From: an uncultured Flammeovirgaceae bacterium
GTDB lineage: Bacteria; Bacteroidota; Bacteroidia; Cytophagales; MED-G16
Direction: 5' to 3'
DNA: 60,645 bases
Assembly: GCA_913052485.1 (NCBI GenBank)
Contig: CAJXDN010000006.1
Location: forward strand, 1-60,645
Shown in pieces: positions 2,666-7,716 of the stretch. Each line of letters starts with the position of its first letter. Position 1 is the stretch's first letter. The notes beneath the pieces are model-generated. The model had not been told where the DNA came from. It ran no database searches and saw only the letters and a program-made list of their open reading frames with translations. Made by a program: the position numbers and the translations under genes.

Positions 2666-3052
2666 ATGAAGATTTCAACTATACATCCCGATAATATTGG
2701 TGCGACAATCAGTACTCTGTGTGTTATTCACTGTTTTGCTACACCGTTTTTATTTATAACTCAGAGTTACATGATAGTTGTTCCGGGTTGGTGGCAAGCA
2801 CTAAATTATGTATTTCTTGCACTTTCTTTATTTGCTGTTTACAAAACAAGTCAGAATTCATCTAACCAAATTGTTAAAACTCTTTTATTTGTATTCTGGG
2901 GAATTCTTGCTTCACTTTTAATTAGTGAAGAATTTGAACTTTTTCACTTACCAGAATTTATAACATACTTGACAGGATTAACACTTGCAGGATTACACAT
3001 CTACAATAAAAAATATTGTCAGTGTGTTGACGACGAATGTTGTGTTGATTAA
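2666..3052 (+). CDS. MerC domain membrane protein
   Basis: A 128-residue protein with about four hydrophobic segments. It carries the MerC signature near the N-terminus: C19-V-I-H22-C23 inside the first membrane segment. The tail is cysteine-rich (YCQCVDDECC), and 'HIYNKKYC' resembles the usual MerC C-terminus. MerC proteins move Hg(II) or other soft metals across the inner membrane, but chromosomal Bacteroidota homologues lie outside mer operons and their substrate is not established. No merA, merT or merR is nearby, so mercury resistance should not be assumed. The gene stands alone between the T9SS cargo and the nucleoside hydrolase, with its own likely promoter. Confidence 0.8.
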   Translation: MKISTIHPDNIGATISTLCVIHCFATPFLFITQSYMIVVPGWWQALNYVFLALSLFAVYKTSQNSSNQIVKTLLFVFWGILASLLISEEFELFHLPEFITYLTGLTLAGLHIYNKKYCQCVDDECCVD

Positions 3053-6308: not shown

Positions 6309-7178
6309 TTAACCTAGGTAATTTACCTTCTCCATTTTTTTGTAAATAGCTAAAATTATAACTCCAAAAAGGATACCTAATACAAGAAATGAGACGCTAG
6401 CAAGGCCTGTCGCTGTAAAAGATAACCTTAACATGATCGTCGATATAATAAAACCAGTGTTTCTTATTAGCTGAGAATACCTCTCTGTGTACCTGAAGGA
6501 TATTAGTAAAAGTAGTACGTCAACAAGAATTAGAATTGTAAAGAAGTCAACAAAAAATAGAAAATTGACATCAACATCATTTGAAGACTCTATAAATAGA
6601 CTGCCAAGCCAATTATAGAAACTATAGCTCGCCAATGCCAAAAGAACAGGTACCAAAAGGATAGATATAGCCTTTTTTTGACTAATAAAATTTTGAAGTT
6701 TTTTATCAATTTTTGGTTTCTTTGGTCTTCCTGCCGTGGTTTTAAAGAGGTATATTAAAAAGAATACCAGAATAAAACCTGTAATGTCATATAGAAACTG
6801 GACATTGTATGGACTTGTAAAGAAATCTTTTGATAAATCTACTAGTGGGACGTCTTTAAATATCTTTCTTATCAATACCAGTGAGATAATTTCATATCCC
6901 TTGACTACTGAAACTGTAAAGGAGCTAGGGAGATAGTAAATAAGCAAAAATGCCTCATAAACTAGTATAAAAGAAAAAGGAGTATACAAAGCAGAGATTG
7001 GATTTTTGAGCAAGTTCTCACCTACATCCATCTGAATATATCCATTAGAATTCAAAAAAATTAGGACTAAGTGGGTAATGAAACCTACAGCCGCAAGAAC
7101 AAGGATGAATTTTTCAAACTTTCCTCGACTATATTTAGAAAATATCGTATCAAATATTAAATTAACATTTTTCATCAT
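6309..7178 (-). CDS. Polytopic membrane protein of unknown function
   Basis: A 289-residue protein (start ATG at 7178 or 7175) with about six to seven hydrophobic segments: roughly residues 25-45, 65-85, 130-150, 170-190, 205-225, 235-250 and 255-280. A basic loop (GRPKKPKIDKK) lies between the third and fourth. I do not recognise the family. It has no REGxE motif of FTR1 iron permeases, no CxxC and no obvious catalytic motif. It is transcribed divergently from the P19/Tp34-like protein with a single base between the start codons, so a functional link to metal handling is possible but is inference only. Confidence 0.7.
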   Translation of the reverse strand: MMKNVNLIFDTIFSKYSRGKFEKFILVLAAVGFITHLVLIFLNSNGYIQMDVGENLLKNPISALYTPFSFILVYEAFLLIYYLPSSFTVSVVKGYEIISLVLIRKIFKDVPLVDLSKDFFTSPYNVQFLYDITGFILVFFLIYLFKTTAGRPKKPKIDKKLQNFISQKKAISILLVPVLLALASYSFYNWLGSLFIESSNDVDVNFLFFVDFFTILILVDVLLLLISFRYTERYSQLIRNTGFIISTIMLRLSFTATGLASVSFLVLGILFGVIILAIYKKMEKVNYLG

Positions 7179-7179
7179 T

Positions 7180-7716
7180 ATGAGATTACTTATTTATTTA
7201 ATAATTATATCAACATCTAACGTCTTTTCCCAGGAATTAGTTTTAGGTGAGGAAAGAATAGAGCCAGGGATTGTATTTATTTTCGAAGGTGCTATCAAAG
7301 ATAAAGTATTCCCAACATCACTCAATTTAGAAGAAAAGCATACCGATGTACATATAGAAGCGAGGGTGAATTGGGATTCAAATAATTTACCTGTTGGGAC
7401 GCCACCTGGGGGGTTTATACCATACCTTAAAATGAGCGCAATTATTACAAACCAGAAAACAAACGATAAGATACTTGTTGACTTGATACCGCACATAAAT
7501 TTAATTGATAACTTTCATTATGCTAAAAACATATCCCTTCCCGGAGATATTGACGAAAGATATAGTGTAAAATTTGTTGTCAGACCACCAGAAATGACAA
7601 CACTATATTTCCATAAAGACTGGGCTGAGTCATACTCAAAAAATTTATTTGATGAGGTTTCTTTCGAGTATGTTGATGTAGACTTTAAGGAAATAGCTAA
7701 TTCATCAAGGAATTAA
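7180..7716 (+). CDS. P19/Tp34-like periplasmic metal (iron)-binding protein
   Basis: From the ATG at 7180 the product has 178 residues and begins with a signal peptide ending near FSQ (residue 18). A longer in-frame start at 7078 would bury the signal and run deep into the opposite gene, so it is rejected. The body resembles the P19/Tp34 (iron transport, PF10634-type) family: HIEA (H58, E60), GGFIPYLKM, LIPHINLIDNFHYAKNI (H113), a PP-containing segment, and LYFHKDW (H145) before a final beta-strand (VSFEYVDVDF). These correspond to the family's His/Glu metal ligands. The Met ligand normally found in 'MPM' is not conserved (LIPHI here). Recognition is by motif memory and needs a profile search. 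Expected role: periplasmic iron or copper capture for an inner-membrane partner. Confidence 0.68.
   Translation: MRLLIYLIIISTSNVFSQELVLGEERIEPGIVFIFEGAIKDKVFPTSLNLEEKHTDVHIEARVNWDSNNLPVGTPPGGFIPYLKMSAIITNQKTNDKILVDLIPHINLIDNFHYAKNISLPGDIDERYSVKFVVRPPEMTTLYFHKDWAESYSKNLFDEVSFEYVDVDFKEIANSSRN

Follow-up and report, generated by a model that had tools for sequence, protein, structure and literature searches.

The window (the whole 60,645-nucleotide stretch analysed, contig C6 of a MAG of 1.19 Mb and 78% completeness) carries two genes arranged back to back that probably serve different functions: one encodes a P19-type protein whose family operates here without FTR1, and the other a 289-aa membrane protein linked to phototrophy. 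The latter link, drawn from co-occurrence and gene adjacency, is held with high confidence, and since the genes of this family go with rhodopsin pumps and not with iron uptake, the 289-aa protein is probably an overlooked part of light use. Rhodopsin phototrophy is among the commonest light-capture modes of marine bacteria, and to our knowledge the support that the rhodopsin pump receives beyond the retinal-forming enzyme Blh is poorly known. The 289-aa family, widespread and unannotated, is a candidate for such a missing part, as carriers of close homologs almost all possess a rhodopsin pump and a distant branch occurs in green photosynthetic bacteria.

Gene pair and its surroundings

As summarized in Table 1, the two genes are divergent, with 1 bp between their start codons, and both open reading frames were recovered where the sequence-only reading had placed them. 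An alternative, longer P19 frame starting at 7078 runs into the 289-aa gene and has no N-terminal signal. The promoter-like match found upstream of the 289-aa gene is of a kind that 2.4% of shuffles also give.

Table 1. Features of the divergent gene pair (positions are those of the window)
Position	Strand	Feature	Basis
6309..7178	-	Polytopic membrane protein, 289 aa, unnamed rhodopsin-linked family	Homologs, alignment, model, co-occurrence
6963..6989	-	LYTPFSFIL, the motif marking the rhodopsin-linked subfamily (Y65-T66-P67, F70-I71), beside invariant E75	Alignment
7180..7716	+	Secreted protein of 178 aa, P19 type, metal-binding family PF10634	Profile, solved-structure and fold matches
7180..7233	+	Signal-peptide-like N-terminus, residues 1-18, MRLLIYLIIISTSNVFSQ	Sequence; N-terminal part variable in alignment
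7296..7325	-	Weak Bacteroidota-type promoter-like match, TTG-N19-TATCTTTG, within the P19 ORF and upstream of the 289-aa gene	
7351..7359	+	H58-x-E60, both residues predicted to lie in the metal site	Alignment with the H and E of FetP/P19; unchanged in 10 Bacteroidota P19
7492..7494	+	H105, an invariant His occupying or adjoining the position of the Met ligand of the family	Alignments
7507..7518	+	D110 and H113 (DNFHY; FetP/P19 have DGPHY)	Alignment
7612..7614	+	H145, the C-terminal His, predicted to belong to the site	Alignment

The block consisting of a phosphatase gene, the 289-aa gene and the P19 gene was kept in six genomes of the window's genus, in four of which the gene next after P19 encodes an M1 peptidase. 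Another genome of the genus (G007) has the 289-aa homolog with P19 gone, and a further one (G011) has neither gene, apparently as a result of one deletion (L036 9910-10052, G011:C6), the scar of which fuses the final codons of the 289-aa gene to the final codons of P19, the remainder of both being gone. In the sister genus, where the 289-aa homolog is present and P19 is not, a tandem of rhodopsin, blh and the 289-aa gene takes the place of the pair; the phosphatase on one side and the M1 peptidase on the other indicate that this is the same gene district.

The sequence-only reading had made its proposal of a variant iron uptake system depend on the pairing being conserved in related genomes. 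A contig profile search, however, found P19 less than 8 kb from a member of the 289-aa family only in the window's genus, at 5 of the 80 loci examined. The adjacency arose in one Marinoscillum-like genus, and it is probably incidental. A small membrane protein of the MerC family is also encoded near the pair (window 2666-3052) and is retained in only some genomes of the genus.

A P19 variant and the absence of FTR1

P19, FetP, FtrA and Tp34 (PF10634) are periplasmic iron- and copper-binding proteins. The 178-aa protein matched the PF10634 profile with an E value of 2.5e-30 and 106.1 bits (cut-off 21), and among solved structures its matches were FetP, HftA, FtrA, Tp34 and P19. Although its model was of low confidence (pLDDT only 59.9), all 38 Foldseek matches with E<=0.001 belonged to P19/FetP/FtrA/HftA/Tp34. 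The residue pattern from which membership had originally been proposed, H58-x-E60, GGFIPYL, H113 and H145, was present in full. Judged from its sequence, the protein is accordingly classed as a genuine but variant member of the P19 family, which shares with the known members the sequence family, the fold matches, the H-x-E and GGFIPYL motifs, the D..HY element and the C-terminal His.

The variation concerns the Met ligand of the family, corresponding to M88 in C. jejuni P19 and M90 in FetP (positions taken from the PDB entry titles of the M88I and M90I variants). As had been noted from the sequence, this Met is absent, and its place is occupied by His105, or by N107 if the one-residue insertion is shifted, gap placement varying between alignments; the loop concerned is one residue longer than in the known proteins. 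H58, E60, H105, D110, H113 and H145 were invariant in the six homologs of the genus and kept in 10/10 aligned Bacteroidota homologs, and the change from Met to His at H105 was common to all aligned Bacteroidota P19. Because the Met is absent from all the other aligned Bacteroidota P19 too, its absence is regarded as the mark of a subtype and not as a sign of non-membership.

Within the order, convincing PF10634 matches were confined to the window's genus (6/12 genomes), the only further match, in G213, being weak; in the phylum sample the profile was present in 13 of 395 genomes. The suspected lack of FTR1 (PF03239) was borne out on a broader scale, as profile searches whose positive controls gave matches detected it in 0/12 genomes of the window's genus, which are incomplete MAGs of 54-93% completeness, and in 0/12 other P19-bearing Bacteroidota genomes, which are 98-99% complete. 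Since FTR1 was thus absent from all P19-bearing genomes searched, P19 without FTR1 appears to be the rule in the sampled phylum and not a quirk of the window's locus. Elsewhere in Bacteroidota, P19 genes (L171-L178) were solitary, likewise without FTR1.

As in the P19-cFtr1 system of Campylobacter (PMC6083913, PMC9174327), a periplasmic P19 is encoded here near an inner-membrane protein; in contrast to that system, no FTR1, ABC permeases or thioredoxins stand alongside, and the 289-aa protein matches none of its components by Pfam. These comparisons indicate that the P19 proteins of Bacteroidota do not rely on FTR1 and have a changed set of ligands. The most likely function of the 178-aa protein would be periplasmic binding of iron and/or copper, with delivery of the metal to some other carrier.

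A rival proposal is that P19 and the 289-aa protein together take up iron (or copper) as a variant system, with the 289-aa protein in the place of FTR1. The divergent arrangement in 6/6 genus genomes with P19, the loss of both genes from G011 in one deletion and the absence of FTR1 are in its favor, as is the finding that P19 co-occurs with rhodopsin and with the wider 289-aa family in 4/5 genera (p about 0.005-0.006), which leaves room for a loose link between the two. On the other hand, the genes are not adjacent outside the window's genus, five genomes of another genus (g173) carry P19 and no member of the 289-aa family, most carriers of the family, amounting to dozens of genomes, have no P19, G007 has dispensed with P19 while keeping its neighbor, and the 289-aa family is strongly tied to rhodopsin instead. 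By neighborhood and co-occurrence the pairing was weak, and an uptake system of this kind is considered very unlikely; this part of the sequence-only reading went mostly unsupported.

Association of the 289-aa family with phototrophy

The 289-aa family is widespread, being found in 93 of 395 phylum genomes and giving at least 500 matches in the contig profile search. When close homologs were delimited at >190 bits, rhodopsin (PF01036) was present in 23/24 genomes with a close homolog versus 38/371 of the others in the same set of 395 (Fisher p = 8e-20), and counting by genus gave a similar picture (17/18 with a close homolog versus 15/153 without, p = 8e-14). All 23 rhodopsin-bearing genomes with a close homolog also encoded Blh. 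In a second set, rhodopsin was found in 42 of 50 named carriers, including two Verrucomicrobiota-labelled MAGs, and six of the eight carriers without it were genomes of 1.0-1.7 Mb. Culturable isolates that have both rhodopsin and a homolog include Tenacibaculum sp. SG-28 (L137), Robertkochia sp. 3YJGBD-33 (L143) and Phaeodactylibacter luteus (L161). The rhodopsins of carriers comprised 31 of the DTE and 4 of the NDQ type (n=35), as against 19 DTE, 12 NDQ and 2 other in genomes without the family. The family would nevertheless be dispensable for phototrophy, since 28 rhodopsin genomes, about half of those bearing rhodopsin, do without it.

Gene adjacency pointed in the same direction. About nine separate arrangements place the 289-aa gene beside rhodopsin, blh or lycopene cyclase: it follows rho-blh with a 13-bp overlap in G467 and crtY-blh in G317, precedes blh in G376 and is divergent from rho in G649, with further cases in the sister genus (rho-blh-gene, as above), L134, the L138 clade, L153 and L157. 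By position, it was less than 5 kb from rhodopsin, blh or crtY in 4 of 23 sampled genomes (p 7e-6). In the window's genus the gene is not adjacent to rhodopsin, and in the window's own genome rho-blh is located on a different contig (C4). In L157 (3478-8882), which belongs to a Verrucomicrobiota-labelled MAG, the gene is divergent from rhodopsin and three carotenoid-type genes encoding a polyprenyl synthetase, an FAD oxidoreductase and a phytoene synthase, and a second MAG so labelled carries a homolog at L148 7965-8879; these homologs suggest cross-phylum transfer, or mis-binning.

The co-occurrence with rhodopsin is partly phylogenetic and ecological. On a rival reading, the link is ecological and the family a mere housekeeping or sunlit-water gene of Bacteroidota, as might be expected from the prevalence of marine MAGs among its carriers and from the few carriers devoid of any phototrophy marker, namely the five phylum genomes in which neither rhodopsin nor FMO was found (G061, G296, G299, G390 and G479). 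Such an explanation, however, is improbable in view of the recurrent adjacency to rhodopsin, blh and crtY, the position of the gene inside a rhodopsin cluster in a Verrucomicrobiota-labelled MAG, and the presence of the family in the rhodopsin-bearing f55 genomes as well.

Where members of the distant branch occurred in rhodopsin-free genomes, the host was almost always a green photosynthetic bacterium. A search for the FMO protein (PF02327) was positive in 33/33 rhodopsin-free photosynthetic-type genomes tested (28/28 tested f37 genomes and five genomes of f35 and f48), all of them carriers of the 289-aa family, the search having covered only genomes with the family and Chlorobiota representing one clade.

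The previous survey of rhodopsin-bearing Flavobacteriia reported 43 enriched orthologue groups, of which blh was the strongest (PMC5932025); the portion of that paper available to us names PR, blh, photolyases and sbtA, and the 289-aa family is not among the genes named there, though the supplementary tables may include it among groups without annotation. Like blh, the family lies within, or co-occurs with, the proteorhodopsin-blh-carotenoid clusters described in the same source. Given that rhodopsin-enriched groups had already been found and that the family is not named in that portion of the paper, we regard it as an accessory, new and still without a name, within a kind of system already known, and not as a categorically new system. 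Among the open-licence papers searched, none described a membrane protein of unknown function linked to rhodopsin.

Sequence features and possible role of the 289-aa protein

For the 289-aa protein, nothing significant was found in Pfam, NCBIfam or PDB. Its model (pLDDT 79.8) contained eight long helices and was polytopic, and no match to FTR1 (PF03239) appeared up to E 5, in line with the initial description of the neighbor as a polytopic protein other than FTR1. Microbial rhodopsin (PF01036) likewise gave no match up to E 5, and the invariant Lys residues of the family are K93 and K168, neither of which is in the last helix; homology to rhodopsin was thus dropped. The Pfam scores of TgpA_N (E 3.8) and, in one relative, Iron_permease (E 3.3) fell below the cut-off and were treated as noise. 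When the model was searched against fold libraries (the 'viral' library excluded), the best Foldseek E was 0.32 and the best VIA Z 7.3, a value equalled by unrelated helical bundles; neither program returned a match supporting a channel fold, and generic helical bundles alone are no evidence of a new fold.

Conserved charged residues, namely E75, K93, R104, K168, D220 and R239, fell in predicted helices, and the aromatic or His residues H36, Y65 and W190 were specific to the rhodopsin-linked subfamily. The distant branch (23-29% identity) has neither the LYTPFSFIL signature nor H36 and W190; it retains E75, S86, R104, F107, K168, D220 and R239.

These features bear on whether the protein handles retinal or carotenoid, for example in opsin delivery or membrane insertion, or is a rhodopsin assembly factor. 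The invariable company of Blh in rhodopsin-bearing genomes with a close homolog, the co-directional arrangement with a neighboring blh in G467, G317, G376, L134 and the sister genus, and the subfamily-specific H36, Y65 and W190 are all consistent with such a role. It appears unlikely, however, because the distant branch resides in FMO genomes having neither Blh nor rhodopsin, so that the superfamily is not retinal-specific, and because about half of the rhodopsin-bearing genomes manage without the protein.

Whereas a retinal-specific role fits the distant branch poorly, the light-driven proton-motive force is the clearest feature common to rhodopsin and chlorophyll phototrophs. Carriers would generate this force either by a rhodopsin proton pump, mostly of the DTE type, together with Blh or, in the distant branch, by chlorophyll-based photosynthesis, and the 289-aa protein would balance or exploit it, conducting or regulating ions through its putatively buried conserved charges. 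That the protein acts on the light-driven proton-motive force is a plausible though tentative proposal. Somewhat more speculatively, one family might serve both retinal- and chlorophyll-based phototrophy across Bacteroidota and Chlorobiota, as a regulator of, or ion path for, the proton-motive force, and might have moved together with rhodopsin clusters, reaching even Verrucomicrobiota.

Several other genes were observed around these loci. In L153 (9882-11897), a lycopene cyclase is fused to a Blh-type beta-carotene dioxygenase beside rhodopsin. In the window's own genome, blh is followed by a gene for a TMEM164-family membrane protein (PF14808; L224 11530-12246, G000:C4), and two genomes of the genus have a similar-sized gene after blh. 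Finally, in L112 (7147-7485) and 11 similar loci, from a clade of marine Bacteroidetes, a small membrane protein of 112 aa with a weak Tmemb_14 match is encoded directly upstream of the 289-aa family gene.
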